18,730 nucleotides of DNA from a bacterium. Lineage in GTDB: Bacteria; UBP18; UBA7526. The notes beneath the pieces are model-generated. The model ran no database searches. It was not told the origin of the DNA and saw only the letters and a program-made list of their open reading frames with translations. Positions 881 through 16,758 of the stretch are shown here, in pieces (position 1 is the first letter of the stretch; every line of letters begins with the position of its first letter). A program made the translations under genes and the position numbers. Location: NCBI GenBank assembly GCA_030619985.1, contig JAUXAI010000016.1, positions 1 to 18,730 on the forward strand, read 5' to 3'.

Positions 881-982
881 ACACAGATCATCACAGATTA
901 TAAACAGATGATCACAGATTTTTCTCACGCAGACTATCACAGATTTTGAACAGATGACCACAGATATCTGTGGTCATCTGTG
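881..982. repeat. CACAGAT array, downstream side of the nuclease gene
   Basis: Plus-strand ACAGAT units begin at 883, 893, 904, 914, 939, 950 and 960, with a degenerate GCAGAC unit near 929, mostly 10-11 nt apart. The array ends in a perfect 32-bp palindrome at 950-981 (ACAGATGACCACAGAT followed by its reverse complement). That palindrome stops four bases short of the nuclease stop codon at 986-988. The opposite end overlaps the upstream region of the phosphatase gene. Confidence 0.85.
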
Positions 983-985
983 TTT

Positions 986-1363
986 TTACGTATGAATCAA
1001 TCTTTTTATGCCAACCTTGCTTGTTCCAAAATTTGCAAGAAGGACCAGTTTATATCTGGTTCCCTTAGCATAGTAGTAAACCTGATCCCGCATCGCTTTG
1101 GTTATGGCCGGTGCTACTTTAATCTCTAAAATGACCTTATCATCTATGATAAAATCTGGCCTATATACACCTATCTTCTTCCCTTTATACTTAACATCTA
1201 TTGATTTTTCTTCGCTAAATGGTATCTTCCTATTATCTAACGCTATGGCTACGGCCTTATGATAAATGATTTCCTTATGTACTGCCCCTAACTCTTTGTG
1301 CACTTCATATAAGATCCCGATGATTTTATACGTTAAGTCCTTATAAATATAATCTGTGCTCAT
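986..1363 (-). CDS. GxxExxY-family PD-(D/E)xK nuclease-like protein
   Basis: Small protein of 125 aa matching the GxxExxY (PDDEXK_3) family, predicted to fold as a PD-(D/E)xK nuclease of unknown substrate. The putative active site is R68-P69-D70 followed by E80-I-K82. The family's signature region (VHKELG and then E31..Y34) is present, but the first glycine of GxxExxY is replaced by V28. Length is typical of the family. No good Shine-Dalgarno sequence precedes the ATG; the start codon and codons 2-4 (Ser-Thr-Asp) are themselves part of the CACAGATGAC repeat. Repeat arrays flank both sides in opposite orientation, giving a compact unit of about 540 bp. Family and fold are known from homologues; nuclease activity and any link to the repeats are inference. 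Confidence 0.8.
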   Translation of the reverse strand: MSTDYIYKDLTYKIIGILYEVHKELGAVHKEIIYHKAVAIALDNRKIPFSEEKSIDVKYKGKKIGVYRPDFIIDDKVILEIKVAPAITKAMRDQVYYYAKGTRYKLVLLANFGTSKVGIKRLIHT

Positions 1364-1416
1364 CTGCGGTCATTTTCTGTGATCATCTGTGGTTCTCATC
1401 TGCGGTCATCTGCGTC
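1352..1416. repeat. CACAGATG array, upstream side of the nuclease gene
   Basis: Plus-strand (A/T)TCTG(T/C)G units begin at 1352, 1362, 1375, 1385, 1398 and 1408. The spacing alternates 10, 13, 10, 13, 10, so the higher-order unit is 23 nt. Relative to the 881-965 array these units are inverted, so the nuclease lies between inverted repeat arrays. The array contains the nuclease start codon (1361-1363) and, at its far end, the last three arginine codons and stop of the 57-aa gene upstream. Confidence 0.85.
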
Positions 1417-4689: not shown

Positions 4690-5310
4690 TTAATGCGCTC
4701 TCACGATCTCTTTAATCCTCATTAGTCTGGTCAAATCTGCCCTCTCCATCTCACTAAGTTTCATGGTAATATACTTTATGGTCTCTTCTAAGTTGGGGAT
4801 GAAGATATACTCTAAGGCGTTCACCCTTCTGCGTGTTCTTTCTATCTCAGCAGCCAAAAGTTCTAACGTTTTCTCTAAAGAGGCTAACTTTACCAAAGAA
4901 GGCAATAGGTCTGAATAGACCTTTAGGGCGATATCCAATTCAGATGAGGTAGTTGCTAATCCATAATTATGGATGTCTCCTTCTTTCTTAATTTCATACT
5001 CTGGGACCTTGACACCTACGATATACCTAAAAGAAACCTCAAGAGTTATTTTCTCTCCGGGCCACATCAAGGCTTCTTCAATGAACTCTGGAGGTATAAG
5101 CATCCGAGCAGTAACGAAGCTCTGAAATGCCTTTTTCAGGCCTTCTTCTACCTCTTTTCTTAAGCCTATCACCTCTTTGACTAAAGGCATGAACTGCCTT
5201 ATCAGTTCATCCTGCTTATCTTTTAGGAGTCGGTGGCCTCTCTGGGCCAGAAGGATCCTCTTCTTTAATCTCAATAACTCCATCCTAGTAGGACTAACAG
5301 AAAGCCGCAT
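4690..5310 (-). CDS. atpD: V-type ATPase subunit D (central rotor shaft)
   Basis: Subunit D is the long antiparallel coiled coil inside the A3B3 head, and with F forms the rotor shaft driving catalysis. The 206-aa protein has the family N-terminal signature (SPTRMELLRLKKRILLA) and the C-terminal half of the coiled coil with ELLAAEIERTRRRVNALEY followed by PNLEETIKYI. GGAG lies six bases upstream of the ATG. It is the last ATPase gene, separated from B by a GTTACTGG hairpin repeat, whereas F-x-A-B are fused or overlapping. Confidence 0.94.
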   Translation of the reverse strand: MRLSVSPTRMELLRLKKRILLAQRGHRLLKDKQDELIRQFMPLVKEVIGLRKEVEEGLKKAFQSFVTARMLIPPEFIEEALMWPGEKITLEVSFRYIVGVKVPEYEIKKEGDIHNYGLATTSSELDIALKVYSDLLPSLVKLASLEKTLELLAAEIERTRRRVNALEYIFIPNLEETIKYITMKLSEMERADLTRLMRIKEIVRAH

Positions 5311-5329
5311 CTCTTACTCCATTCAGATA

Positions 5330-5397
5330 GTTTACAGTAACCAGCGAACAGTAACCAGTCTTTTCACTGTAAACTGTAAACTGGTTACTGGTTACTT
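5330..5397. repeat. GTTACTGG hairpin repeat, copy 1 (B-D gap)
   Basis: A 68-nt element with GTAACCAG units on the left and CTGGTTAC units on the right, able to fold into one long imperfect hairpin. Its first 30 and last 20 bases are identical to the copy at 10356-10422; the centres differ. The stop codon of subunit B (5385-5387) lies inside a right-hand GGTTAC unit, read as GTAACC on the minus strand, so the repeat encodes the last residues of B. Confidence 0.85.
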
Positions 5398-6764
5398 TGC
5401 TTAAGATACTTCTTAATATATTCGTCTCTTATTCTCTTCAGGTCACTGGTGGGAATTATAGTGAGTAACTTCCATCCGAGGTCTAAGGTCTCTTCAATGC
5501 TTCTATTCTCTTCCTCGCCCTGGGCAAGGAACTCCTCTTCGAATTTATCGCTGAACTTAGCGTAGAGTTTATCTAATTCTGTTAGCGCGGCTTCACCAAG
5601 GATGATGGCTAATTCCTTGGCCTCTTTTCCCCGAGCATAGCAGGCGAATAACTGATTGGTGACATCCCCATGGTCCTCCCGGGTCTTATCCTTTCCAACC
5701 CCCTTTTCCTTCAATCTCGATAATGAAGGAAGGACATCTATGGGAGGATAGACCCCCTTTCTATGTAGTGGTCGAGAGAGAATTATCTGTCCCTCTGTAA
5801 TATATCCTGTCAGATCGGGAATGGGATGGGTCTTATCATCCTCAGGCATGGTGAGTATTGGGATCTGGGTAATGGAGCCCGCCTTTCCTTTTATCCTTCC
5901 CGCCCTCTCGTATATAGTAGATAAATCAGTATACATATAGCCCGGATATCCCCTTCTTCCGGGAACCTCTTTTCTTGCCGCCGAGATTTCTCTTAAAGCA
6001 TTGGCATAATTGGTCATATCGGTTAATATTACCAAGACATGCATATCCTTCTCGAAGGCGAGATACTCGGCACAGGTTAAGGCCATTCTGGGAGTGGCAA
6101 TCCTCTCGATGGCCGGATCATCTGCCAAGTTAACGAATAATACCGCCCTCTCAATGGCTCCTGTCCTCCGGAAGTCGGTGATGAAGTAATTTGCCTCCTC
6201 GAAAGTAATGCCCATGGCAGCGAAGATCACTGCAAATTTCTCTTCTTTGCCCAAGACTCTTGCTTGTCTGGCGATCTGGGCAGCGATCTGGGGATGAGGT
6301 AATCCTGCACCAGAGAATATGGGAAGCTTCTGTCCTCTCACTAAAGTATTCATGCCATCTATGGCAGAGATCCCGGTCTGAATGAACTCTGTGGGATAGT
6401 CCCTTGCCGTGGGATTTATGGGGTTACCATTGATATCAATCCTCTTCTCCGGAATGATCTTGGGACCACCATCTATGGGTCTTCCCAATCCGTCGAATAT
6501 CCTTCCTAATAAATCGGTGGATACTCCCAGTTCAATCCCTTTTCCTAAGAACCTCACCCTTGCCTGATAGACGTTCAGTCCCGTGGTCCCTTCAAATAGT
6601 TGAACCAAGGCCTTATCACCAGTAACCTCTAATACCTTTCCCCTTCTCACTTCCTTGGTAGCCAGTTCAATCTCTGCAATCTCCCCATACGTAATCCCAC
6701 TTGTCTCCTCCACTAAGATCAAGGGACCAGCGATATGGGATATAGTCAGATATTCTTTTACCAT
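5385..6764 (-). CDS. atpB: V-type ATPase subunit B (non-catalytic head subunit)
   Basis: B alternates with A in the hexameric head and contributes an arginine to each catalytic site without hydrolysing ATP itself. At 459 aa it is the usual length. The region corresponding to the P-loop is [11 protein letters not shown] (151-161), lacking GKT, as expected for [20 protein letters not shown] and [23 protein letters not shown] (in adjacent blocks) are characteristic. Its ATG overlaps the A stop codon (TAATG), with AAGGAG just upstream, giving tight A:B coupling. The last residues KQSNQ and the stop are encoded by the GTTACTGG repeat. Confidence 0.95.
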
Positions 6765-9366: not shown

Positions 9367-10329
9367 TTAGATAAAGGTCTCTCTCATCCTCTCCCTGATC
9401 ATCTGGACAGGAATCTCGTTTATCTTTCCCGTCAATATGCTCCTTAAGAGTTTTATTTCATTCTCTTTAGCAATCAAATAAGCAATAAGCACTTCCAGAC
9501 CAGCAGTAACAAGTTTTGTCTTCTTTACATACTCCAAGAGAAAGTTATCACAGGAAAGCTCAAGTTCTCTCAAGCCTTCTTTTTCATACCCCATAATAGC
9601 CTTGGCATAAGGAGTGAAGGAAAGCTTTCTTAAGAAAGCACCCTCTTCTTTCTCATAGAATTCCAGGAAGAGTTTCTTGGTTAAACTCCCTCCCCCAATG
9701 AGGACTTTTAAGAAGAATGCCCTATTCTTTTTTAAAGCTCGACAGCGGAAAAAGATTTTTATATCTGCAAGGTCAATCTCTATTCGAAAAAGGTTTATTA
9801 CAAATTCATTTTCAGACTCTTCTGCCTTTTCGACACAGAGTCTATAGTATTCTTTATCTAGAATTATATCAATATCCTGGGGATTCTTGTTCTCTTCAAA
9901 GGCTCTCGTTGTCTCCTTCTGAATCTGGAGAAACTTCTTTGCTTCCCCTACTTTCAGGGGCTCAATGGTCCCCAGATTAATGAAGGGCAGTTCCTCTAAA
10001 GGGAGGGGCTTTTCTTTAAACTTATTCTTTAAAAAGACTTTCAGGTTATGGAAATCATAGCGCATCCTGAATAGGTCGGTCAATTCCCTGTTTAAAGACC
10101 CTTTATCAATGAAGGAGTAGAGTCTCCTCAATTCATCGTGAAGTAGTTCTTCAAAATTATGGATATCCTTTAGTTGTGAAACATATGGCCCGTAATCTGT
10201 CTCTTCAAGCTCTGAGAGGCTGGCTTTTGCTGAGGTAGCAGCAATCATCCTCTCCATTTTTAATTTATCGAGAAGTCGCGCCTCAAGAGCCCTTACTCTT
10301 CCTGTGATATAGGCATATCTTATGTCCAT
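9367..10329 (-). CDS. atpC: V-type ATPase subunit C (rotor-to-ring socket)
   Basis: Subunit C (AC39/d family) is the funnel-shaped socket that caps the K-ring and receives the D-F shaft. The 320-aa protein shows the repeated helical layout, with RYAYITGRVRALEARLL at the start, DYGPYVSQL, LFRMRYDFHNLKVFLKNKF in two blocks, and YLIAKENEIKLLRSILTGKI near the end, all typical. The ATG at 10329 has GAGGGAAA directly upstream. It follows E after a GTTACTGG hairpin repeat and precedes F by 16 bases. Confidence 0.92.
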   Translation of the reverse strand: MDIRYAYITGRVRALEARLLDKLKMERMIAATSAKASLSELEETDYGPYVSQLKDIHNFEELLHDELRRLYSFIDKGSLNRELTDLFRMRYDFHNLKVFLKNKFKEKPLPLEELPFINLGTIEPLKVGEAKKFLQIQKETTRAFEENKNPQDIDIILDKEYYRLCVEKAEESENEFVINLFRIEIDLADIKIFFRCRALKKNRAFFLKVLIGGGSLTKKLFLEFYEKEEGAFLRKLSFTPYAKAIMGYEKEGLRELELSCDNFLLEYVKKTKLVTAGLEVLIAYLIAKENEIKLLRSILTGKINEIPVQMIRERMRETFI

Positions 10330-10355
10330 TTTCCCTCAGTAGCCAACGATTAGAA

Positions 10356-10422
10356 GTTTACAGTAACCAGCGAACAGTAACCAGTTTTTTACTATAAACT
10401 GCAAACTGGTTACTGGTTACTT
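10356..10422. repeat. GTTACTGG hairpin repeat, copy 2 (E-C gap)
   Basis: A 67-nt element built like the one at 5330-5397, with identical outer parts (30 nt on the left, 20 nt on the right) and a different centre. GTAACCAG units on the left can pair with CTGGTTAC units on the right. The stop codon of subunit E (10417-10419) is the TAA inside a GTAACC unit, as for subunit B at the other copy. Confidence 0.85.
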
Positions 10423-10989
10423 CTTAAATAACATTTTTACCAGTCTGAATTCCAGTTCCTCGCGCTTAGAGTGAAGGAGGGTTTCGAAGGAGTTATTAAC
10501 CTCTATCTTCTTTCTCTTCAGGATGAATCCCCCGCTAATTCCTCTTTCCTCCTTTGAAATCTTCAATTCTTTATTGATGCTTTCAATAAAAGAAGGCGTA
10601 ATCCTTTTTCTATCTTCCCTTGATATAATGACCTCACCCGGCCCACTCTTCGCTGCCTTGAGAAGCATTTTCTTAATTATATCTTGATAAGATTTTTTAC
10701 CGAGTCTCTTAAGTTTTGCTAAGGCCTTCTTATAGGCCTCTTCCATCAAGCGCTCCTTCTCTTCTAAAACTATTCTCCTTGCCTCTAAGTTAGCCGTGGT
10801 GAGGATACGGTCTCGTCTCCTTTGGGCTTCGAAAGAGGCAGCCTTTAGGATCTCCTCTTTAATGGAGGCTGCCTTTCTCTTCGCCTCCTTTAGGATTTCA
10901 CTCACTCTACCTTGAGTCTCTTTCTTGATTTTCTCTATCTCAAGGGAAAACTCCTCATCAATGCGCTTAATAATCTTCTCTAAAGGCAT
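10417..10989 (-). CDS. atpE: V-type ATPase subunit E (peripheral stalk)
   Basis: E pairs with the small H/G subunit to form the peripheral stalk that holds the catalytic head against rotation. The 190-aa protein has the expected long charged N-terminal helix (about 1-95, with EIEKIKKETQGRVSEILKEA) followed by a globular C-terminal domain (GPGEVIISREDRKRI, RGISGGFIL). The ATG at 10989 follows AGGGG by about seven bases. The stop codon is supplied by the repeat downstream, after the last codons for LFKK, so the original end may have been altered slightly. Confidence 0.92.
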   Translation of the reverse strand: MPLEKIIKRIDEEFSLEIEKIKKETQGRVSEILKEAKRKAASIKEEILKAASFEAQRRRDRILTTANLEARRIVLEEKERLMEEAYKKALAKLKRLGKKSYQDIIKKMLLKAAKSGPGEVIISREDRKRITPSFIESINKELKISKEERGISGGFILKRKKIEVNNSFETLLHSKREELEFRLVKMLFKK

Positions 10990-11000
10990 CTTTGACCCCT

Positions 11001-11100
11001 AACGGTTACTGAAGGTTACAAACGGTTACTATCAGTTACCTTTTTAAATAATGTAACCGGTTTTAACTGTTTTTAACCGTTGTTAACCGATATTAACTTA
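11001..11100. repeat. 100-bp array phased at exactly 10 bp (K-E gap)
   Basis: Ten consecutive 10-bp blocks fill this gap. Blocks 1-4 each carry (A/G)GTTAC at the same offset (for example AACGGTTACT at 11001 and 11021). Block 5 is an A/T spacer. Blocks 6-9 carry the inverse, GTAACCG or TTAAC(C/T)G, again in register, and block 10 ends in TTAACT. The array is therefore symmetric and can fold into a cruciform or hairpin. It separates the K and E genes. Confidence 0.85.
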
Positions 11101-11613: not shown

Positions 11614-11662
11614 ACACAGATTCACACAGATTTAATACAGATGGCCACAGATCACAGATAGT
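11614..11662. repeat. CACAGAT array in the I-K gap
   Basis: Five ACAGAT units start at 11616, 11626, 11637, 11647 and 11654 on the plus strand, with spacings 10, 11, 10 and 7. The unit is the same as that flanking the nuclease gene, but no nuclease gene is present here, so the array can exist alone. It lies just upstream of the K ribosome-binding site. Confidence 0.8.
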
Positions 11663-13979: not shown

Positions 13980-14291
13980 CTATTTAACGATCTTTTGAGC
14001 AATAAAAGAGGCGGCCTTATTCATCCTCTTTTTGGCCGCCTTCTTTATCTTCTCTCTCTCTTTTAAAGACTTTTCTTTTATCTTTTGGGCTTCTTTATTT
14101 GCCAGTTCCTCTCCCTTTTCAATTAGTTTCTTTCCTTCTTCTTTTGCTTTGGCTTCAATCTCTTTTATTAGCTTCTCTGCCTTCTCTTGGGCCTCCTTTA
14201 TCGCTTCTTTCGCTTTTTCCTTCGCCTCTTCTAAGGCCTTGGCGCAAGAAGCCTCTTTCTCTTTTATCTTCTTAATCGCTTCCTCAACCAC
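13980..14291 (-). CDS. ahaH: V-type ATPase subunit H/G (peripheral stalk, small coiled coil)
   Basis: This subunit dimerises with E to form the peripheral stalk. The 103-aa protein is almost wholly a charged, alanine-rich coiled coil (EEAIKKIKEKEA through KKAAKKRMNKAASFIAQ), as in archaeal AhaH. The GTG at 14291 is preferred: GGAG sits seven bases upstream, and the longer reading from 14378 would add 29 residues encoded only by stacked palindromes. It is the first gene of the ATPase operon. The Shine-Dalgarno sequence itself is one arm of a hairpin. Confidence 0.85.
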   Translation of the reverse strand: MVEEAIKKIKEKEASCAKALEEAKEKAKEAIKEAQEKAEKLIKEIEAKAKEEGKKLIEKGEELANKEAQKIKEKSLKEREKIKKAAKKRMNKAASFIAQKIVK

Positions 14292-14295
14292 AAGA

Positions 14296-14390
14296 TATCT
14301 CCTTCGGAGATACTTCCATAGGGGTTTCACCCCTCTGGCGTTCCGTCCCGATTCACTGGATCGGGACTCCACTGTCACCCCCTGGGGGGC
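14296..14390. repeat. Stack of palindromes in the ATPase operon leader
   Basis: Three clean hairpins follow each other: 14296-14312 (TATCTCC-TTC-GGAGATA), 14320-14334 (AGGGGT-TTC-ACCCCT) and 14345-14367 (GTCCCGAT, 7-nt loop, ATCGGGAC). A C5/G6 palindrome follows at about 14378-14389. On the minus strand they form the untranslated leader of subunit H, and the first contains its Shine-Dalgarno sequence. A promoter could not be identified with confidence. Confidence 0.75.
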
Positions 14391-14424
14391 AAGCAGATTC
14401 TTTCCCCCAGACCCCCTAATCCTC

Positions 14425-14452
14425 GCATCGGAACTTATTTAAATTCCGATGC
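14425..14452 (-). other. Hairpin between the sulfur genes and the ATPase operon
   Basis: A perfect 9-bp stem (GCATCGGAA/TTCCGATGC) with a 10-nt A/T-rich loop lies five bases beyond the stop codon of the second miniprotein. No T-tract follows in either direction, so it is not a standard intrinsic terminator. It may act in transcript processing or stability, or be another repeat copy. Confidence 0.5.
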
Positions 14453-14457
14453 TTCAA

Positions 14458-16653: not shown

Positions 16654-16756
16654 TTCTGTGAGTCTCTTTATCTGCGACAATCTGCGTTTTGATCTGCAGC
16701 CATTGCTTGATATTCATGCTCTCTCGGATGCCAGTGCAGCGCATCCGGCATCTGCG
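16654..16756. repeat. ATCTGCG/CACAGAT-type repeat with hairpin, before the radical SAM gene
   Basis: Units TTCTGTG (16654), ATCTGCG (16670, 16680), ATCTGCA (16692) and ATCTGCG (16750) belong to the CACAGATG family. A hairpin CGGATGC/GCATCCG lies at 16725-16747. The array touches the radical SAM start codon and the end of the DUF39 gene, whose last residues may be repeat-derived. Confidence 0.7.
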
Positions 16757-16758
16757 TC

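Follow-up and report, generated by a model that had tools for sequence, protein, structure and literature searches.

Among the described systems closest to the locus analyzed here are the REPtrons, in which TnpA-REP, or RAYT, is found with REP and BIME repeats, and in which the TnpA-REP gene is usually stable and shows no evidence of being mobile itself (PMC8266576). Intergenic repeats of the heptamer TAACTGA have been described in Beggiatoaceae, Cyanobacteria and Bacteroidetes (PMC4679880). These heptamers resemble the arrays reported here in being intergenic direct repeats near start codons, in occurring patchily in the same three groups, and in their suspected horizontal spread, whereas, compared by description, they differ in that the text mentions no nuclease gene and does not present the repeats as inverted arms (PMC4679880). 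Insertion sequences and MITEs share with our locus inverted ends, an autonomous gene copy accompanied by many short gene-less copies, and insertion differences between relatives; however, the unit studied here contains no DDE, HUH or serine/tyrosine recombinase, only a PD-(D/E)XK gene, and its ends are tandem arrays of units. CRISPR arrays differ in having unique spacers of about 25-40 bp, whereas the gaps between our units are mostly 0-8 bp.

Rickettsia-type and other palindromic elements are dispersed, gene-less palindromes of 100-300 bp, for which we know of no cognate PD-(D/E)XK gene; the arms described here differ in consisting of phased short units that also border a nuclease gene. The intervening sequences of 23S rRNA contain a small four-helix-bundle gene between complementary ends, in a hairpin, within rRNA helices. 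They are similar in placing a small gene between complementary ends, the more so as genes matching TIGR02436 are array-bounded in our data, but the protein is unrelated to ours and without a nuclease fold, and the known case lies in rRNA helices.

Here we analyze an 18,730-nucleotide stretch of DNA (the window; contig JAUXAI010000016.1 of assembly GCA_030619985.1, from a bacterium of the GTDB lineage UBP18; UBA7526), together with a sample of six genomes of its phylum (G000-G005, G000 being the window's own), which represent three genera of one family. As in a REPtron, a nuclease gene lies beside repeats in both orientations, gene-less copies are numerous and mainly intergenic, the repeats co-vary with the enzyme, and the gene is usually stable. 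The enzyme is a PD-(D/E)XK nuclease rather than an HUH tyrosine (Y1) TnpA-REP transposase, and the repeats are four to five phased short units rather than GTAG-tagged single stem-loops of 20-40 nt; by inspection, the arms are direct tandem units and lack a consistent GTAG tag. A further difference is that several classes coexist per genome here, with nested palindromes of up to several hundred bp. Since neither the enzyme nor the repeat structure is that of a REPtron, we class the system as REPtron-like, and not as a REPtron.

A nuclease gene framed by inverted arrays

The original prediction, made from the window alone, was of a 125-aa nuclease lying between CACAGAT-type arrays of opposite orientation, with a start codon and three following codons derived from the repeat, and with terminal inverted repeats around the whole unit. 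Our analysis bears this out (Table 1). The unit spans 536 bp (881-1416), with repeats on the plus strand at 882-965 and on the minus strand at 1352-1414, and the inverted pairs 884-902/1348-1366, 904-918/1376-1390 and 951-965/1398-1412 are 89-100% complementary. It occupies the whole gap from the stop codon of the preceding conserved gene (about 1416), where the upstream arm terminates, to the ribosome-binding region of the next gene. The nuclease start codon lies within CGCAGATGAGCACAGATTAT, the first four codons (M-S-T-D) being repeat sequence, and the perfect palindrome is formed by the two units that follow the stop codon together with the inverted array. The window contains 15 copies of CACAGAT (1.63 expected), a count reached in none of 200 shuffles, and nine of these copies fall within the unit; Tandem Repeats Finder also calls the window arrays.

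Table 1. Coordinates of the nuclease gene and of the repeat features in the window
Feature	Position	Strand	Remarks
GxxExxY PD-(D/E)XK nuclease gene, 125 aa	986..1363	-	PF13366/TIGR04256 matches; AlphaFold model
Upstream arm, CRCAGAT units	1352..1416	-	spans start and first codons
Two units in gene orientation, immediately 3' of stop codon	966..982	-	
Downstream inverted arm, CACAGAT units	881..965	+	
Perfect palindrome, 16-bp arms, at meeting point of the two orientations	950..981	.	
Solo canonical five-unit array, spacing 10-11-10-7	11615..11659	+	intergenic
Degenerate solo array, three CGCAGAT-like units	16670..16698	-	

Gene-less arrays had also been proposed at two places in the window. 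One of these is a clean five-unit array that separates the gene for ATP synthase subunit c from the V-type ATPase gene that follows it. The other, placed at 16654-16756, proved weaker: its three units adjoin a distinct 66-bp dispersed repeat, which overlaps them in part. A cleaner four-unit array lies at the matching place in G003. This 66-bp repeat (16692-16757) has many copies, beside or within CGCAGAT arrays. The window holds further short dispersed repeats at 5308-5399, 10349-10425 and 10999-11100, of ACTGGTTACTG / GTAACC types and thus of a different array class, with additional copies across the six genomes, as well as a dispersed element of about 165 bp (14291-14457) that has many copies in the same genomes and is a clean insertion relative to G004.

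The enzyme is a predicted nuclease of RecB/Cas4 type

PF13366 (107.9 bits; cut-off 22) and TIGR04256 (106.7 bits; cut-off 35) both match the window protein over nearly its full length, and are the only profile matches to it. In window numbering, E31, E80, K82 and Y98 are invariant in 55 sequences, D70 is present in at least 90%, and Q94 is invariant among 12 sequences, giving a conserved active-site pattern of E31, D70, ExK at 80-82 and QxxxY at 94-98. The best PDB match of the AlphaFold model (pLDDT 93) is the Cas4 protein SSO0001 (Foldseek E 1.5e-3, Z 9.2); restriction enzymes and a Holliday-junction resolvase come next, but their middling Z kept them out of the function assignment. Together, these results support a predicted PD-(D/E)XK nuclease of RecB/Cas4 type, and bear on its fold and catalytic type rather than on its substrate. 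Our literature searches, which covered open-licence papers, gave no function for GxxExxY proteins.

Four nuclease genes and many dispersed arrays in one genome

The window's genome (1.25 Mb, 84% complete) contains four GxxExxY genes, each framed by a different repeat class: CRCAGAT in the window, ACAACGGAT/CGCAGAT at L001, GATTACAGTGAT at L002 and CGCGAAT at L003. All four loci have units upstream and inverted units downstream, and the start codon lies inside or beside the upstream units in the window, at L002 and at L003. Arrays are also abundant away from these genes. For example, 199 ACAGAT unit pairs are present in this genome, compared to 4 for the reversed control, and we found 41 CRCAGAT arrays in 312 kb of fully read DNA, which follow a few strict formats (10-11-10-7, 10-14-10 and 10-12-10) and of which 40 are outside open reading frames, although 83% of this DNA is coding. 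Most solo arrays belong to classes whose cognate nuclease is absent from this incomplete genome. An origin of the arrays by chance or from low complexity was rejected on the basis of the shuffles, the reversed control, the contrast between flanks described below, and the intergenic bias.

Inverted arms recur across phyla and follow the nuclease clade

An alignment-based scan provided 80 loci from many phyla, and we compared the upstream flank of each with the reverse complement of its downstream flank by local alignment, using 355 other genes on the same contigs as controls. Inverted flanks (score of at least 24) are present at 79% of 78 GxxExxY loci, compared to 7.3% of the controls (Mann-Whitney p 5e-31), as expected if these genes are enriched beside inverted arrays; this contrast is understated, since two of the best-scoring control genes are themselves GxxExxY by their own sequence. 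Arms are not detectable at some loci, for example in Chitinophaga fulva, and 15 of the 78 loci score no higher than their own control. Where present, they usually consist of 4-5 short units in a phase of about 8-11 bp, and extra arm copies are located within 6 kb at only 10 of 53 loci (about 1.3 expected). The suggestion that N-termini in relatives are repeat-encoded holds for some of them: among 55 loci, the arm extends as far as the start codon in 9, and in 27 it stops within 30 nt of this codon.

Similarity between arms tracks identity between proteins (73 loci, Mantel r 0.68, reached in 0 of 999 permutations). A single universal repeat was rejected, since arm classes differ between nuclease clades; the idea of one CACAGAT system thus gives way to many clade-specific repeat classes, while the proposal of a nuclease unit with terminal inverted arrays, and of gene-less arrays of its type elsewhere, is borne out. 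The original interpretation is in this way supported in part and broadened. Arms of the GTCTGAAC...TGATT class occur in Bacteroidota and additionally in Anabaena, Limnohabitans and Thiotrichaceae, whose proteins nest within those of Bacteroidota, the Anabaena protein being 90% identical to that of Runella. This suggests that gene and arms may have been transferred together, with bin contamination a possibility for the metagenome bins.

Of the genomes sampled, 45% of those from Planctomycetota and 60% of those from Bacteroidia contain GxxExxY genes. The prediction that arrays should track with the gene agrees with our survey of 395 Bacteroidia genomes, 21 of which contain GTCTGAAC-type arms: the TIGR04256 gene is present in 19 of these 21 compared to 220 of the remaining 374 (Fisher p 0.002, by a test that ignores phylogeny), with two arm-bearing genomes in which no GxxExxY gene was detected. 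In Planctomycetota, an overly strict pattern gave 3 matches, two of which are simple tandem repeats in genomes for which no gene is listed.

Copy expansion, nested palindromes and fixed loci

Some genomes contain a large number of arms. Arms of GTCTGAAC type number 85 in Chitinophaga niastensis, while a Thiotrichaceae MAG contains 151 and Dolichospermum 87; the reversed controls gave no match. With a looser pattern, C. niastensis has 253 arm copies. Of those that we read in this genome, most are palindromes measuring either 124 bp or about 272 bp, the latter enclosing a second palindrome, and several grow outward as further symmetric layers of 30-95 bp. Arm identity in this genome is 98.7% within a copy and 90.7% between copies. 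The nuclease gene is flanked by the same arms as the gene-less palindromes and, among the matches listed, is the sole gene observed between perfect GTCTGAAC arms; the two palindromes examined are absent from the orthologous sites in other species. We regard the gene-less arms, occurring singly or as nested palindromes, as apparent non-autonomous copies dispersed between genes.

Across 60 Chitinophaga genomes, GTCTGAAC-class arms are present in 2 of 19 that are gene-positive and 0 of 41 that are gene-negative, which is consistent with an association, in an underpowered sample. Most of the other Chitinophaga GxxExxY genes that we read have arms of GCAAAG or GGATT/TGATT types, and sit at what are apparently two shared loci. 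Arms are more alike within loci than between them (0.87 vs 0.75, and 0.90 vs 0.67), which indicates that a gene can stay at one locus by inheritance while its arms change in concert. To judge from these comparisons, some GxxExxY copies are inherited at fixed loci under purifying selection, with a dN/dS of 0.04-0.08 among close Chitinophaga copies.

A second gene family in similar units

The nuclease is not the only small gene found between arrays. On contig C30 of the window's genome (6102-6648, L194), CACAGAT half-arms enclose a gene matching TIGR02436, which we take to be the 23S rRNA intervening-sequence type of four-helix-bundle protein, and this gene has its own inverted GGTAACG arrays. 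Inverted arms surround TIGR02436-like genes in 8 of the 10 evaluable cases in the DNA that we fetched, one of these being of low complexity, and array-bounded small genes are therefore not confined to the nuclease. A further array-bounded TIGR02436 four-helix-bundle gene is located at L096:13704-14133. We also observed, at L168:4237-4699, an open reading frame that by eye resembles an IS200-type transposase; its inverted-flank score is high, and its contig also contains a GxxExxY gene.

These TIGR02436 units provide the main argument for seeing the nuclease as a passenger. In this view, another enzyme or host processes (template switching, repair or slippage) would spread and homogenize the arrays, and GxxExxY, like the four-helix-bundle gene, would be among the small genes that repeatedly land inside them. 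Host correction of imperfect palindromes is a known process, and the window's genome is array-rich without the nuclease of its commonest solo class. We nevertheless regard this explanation as rather unlikely, given that arm class follows nuclease clade across phyla, that arm-bearing genomes are enriched for the GxxExxY gene, and that in C. niastensis nothing but the nuclease was seen between perfect GTCTGAAC arms among the matches listed.

Arrays are gained, lost and replaced at orthologous sites

All six genomes of the phylum sample contain GxxExxY genes, and nearly all of the flanks that we read have upstream units and inverted downstream units of a locus-specific sequence. At one locus (L049), the canonical five-unit array is present at both ends, giving true terminal inverted arrays, and the solos of G000 are single copies of this canonical array. 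The window site itself varies between these genomes: in G004 the gene is absent and a single remnant unit is present, G005 has CGCGAAT units, G001 has both CACGAAT and CACAGAT units, and G003, which belongs to the same genus, has arrays without the gene, the upstream arm being conserved and the array beside the conserved gene nearly identical to that of G000. The solo array at 11.6 kb is identical in G003, whereas G004 and G002 have an array of CGCAAA type there instead. A systematic comparison identified clean insertions of array-type DNA, such as a 119-bp CACAGAG palindrome in G004 at window position 9367, absent from G000, and further orthologous sites with an array of another class at the same place. 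At one of these, arrays of two classes begin right after the same tRNA-like 3' end (CCTCCACCA) in G000 (L185:11435) and G003 (L204). No target-site duplication was established at the compared sites, where relatives are too diverged and each species is represented by one genome. On these alignments, some arrays are gained, lost or class-replaced at orthologous sites.

Such turnover also bears on whether the arrays are simply binding sites for a DNA- or RNA-binding regulator near gene starts and ends, with GxxExxY regulated, and perhaps autoregulated, through them. The fixed unit spacing is near the DNA helical period, arrays adjoin ribosome-binding sites and start codons, and such a role has been proposed for the TAACTGA direct repeats of Beggiatoaceae (PMC4679880); however, arms inverted on both sides of a gene, gene-less nested palindromes formed by these arms, and their gain, loss or class swap at orthologous sites make a regulatory explanation quite improbable. 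Least probable, to the point of being very unlikely, is that the arrays are homing sites rather than the spreading unit, with the nuclease cutting gene-less arrays and the gene being copied between them by recombination: the start codon inside a unit and the gene-less window site of G003 are compatible with this without being proof of it, but arms expand and move without the gene, Chitinophaga copies are inherited at fixed loci, and removing the gene from the G000 locus would not simply give that of G003.

A proposed role for the nuclease in repeat spread

With moderate confidence, we propose that GxxExxY units form a widespread REPtron-like class, in which the nuclease would act on arms of its own class and drive their spread or homogenization. 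Their architecture, recurrence across phyla, class specificity, copy expansion, intergenic placement, and gain and loss at orthologous sites are evident from the sequences compared, as are within-copy arm likeness, nesting and purifying selection. The nuclease may cleave arrays and mobilize solo arrays in trans. The presence of copies at fixed loci under purifying selection, of arm-less copies, and of TIGR02436 genes in similar units argues against a simple mobile element.

In the mechanism we envisage, each nuclease clade is paired with its own arm class, and the nuclease would bind the phased units of that class, probably when these are extruded or single-stranded, as in a cruciform, a hairpin or a replication fork; we propose such a substrate because the Cas4/RecB-like QxxxY site suggests it. 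The nuclease would then cut at the bound arms, and host repair would copy arm sequence into the break. Cutting and repair of this kind would spread arms, nest new palindromes in old ones, and keep the two arms of a copy alike, while the gene itself would move rarely and could persist at a fixed locus under purifying selection, a behavior also reported for TnpA-REP. More tentatively, it is possible that this PD-(D/E)XK family is the engine of an unrecognized class of repeat elements, reading phased short units, cutting extruded palindromes and leaving host repair to copy arms into the cut; no strand-transfer enzyme would then be needed for arrays to nest, spread, change class and remain self-complementary.

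We found no report of an association between this nuclease and repeats in our literature searches, which, being confined to open-licence papers, are weak evidence of absence. GxxExxY proteins appear in the annotation of a large proportion of environmental bacterial genomes; the association gives them a testable function and explains many short repeats found between genes in these phyla. It would represent a second, non-homologous solution to the REP/RAYT arrangement, and, if the nuclease cuts extruded arms, repeats would be disseminated by a hydrolytic nuclease and host repair only.
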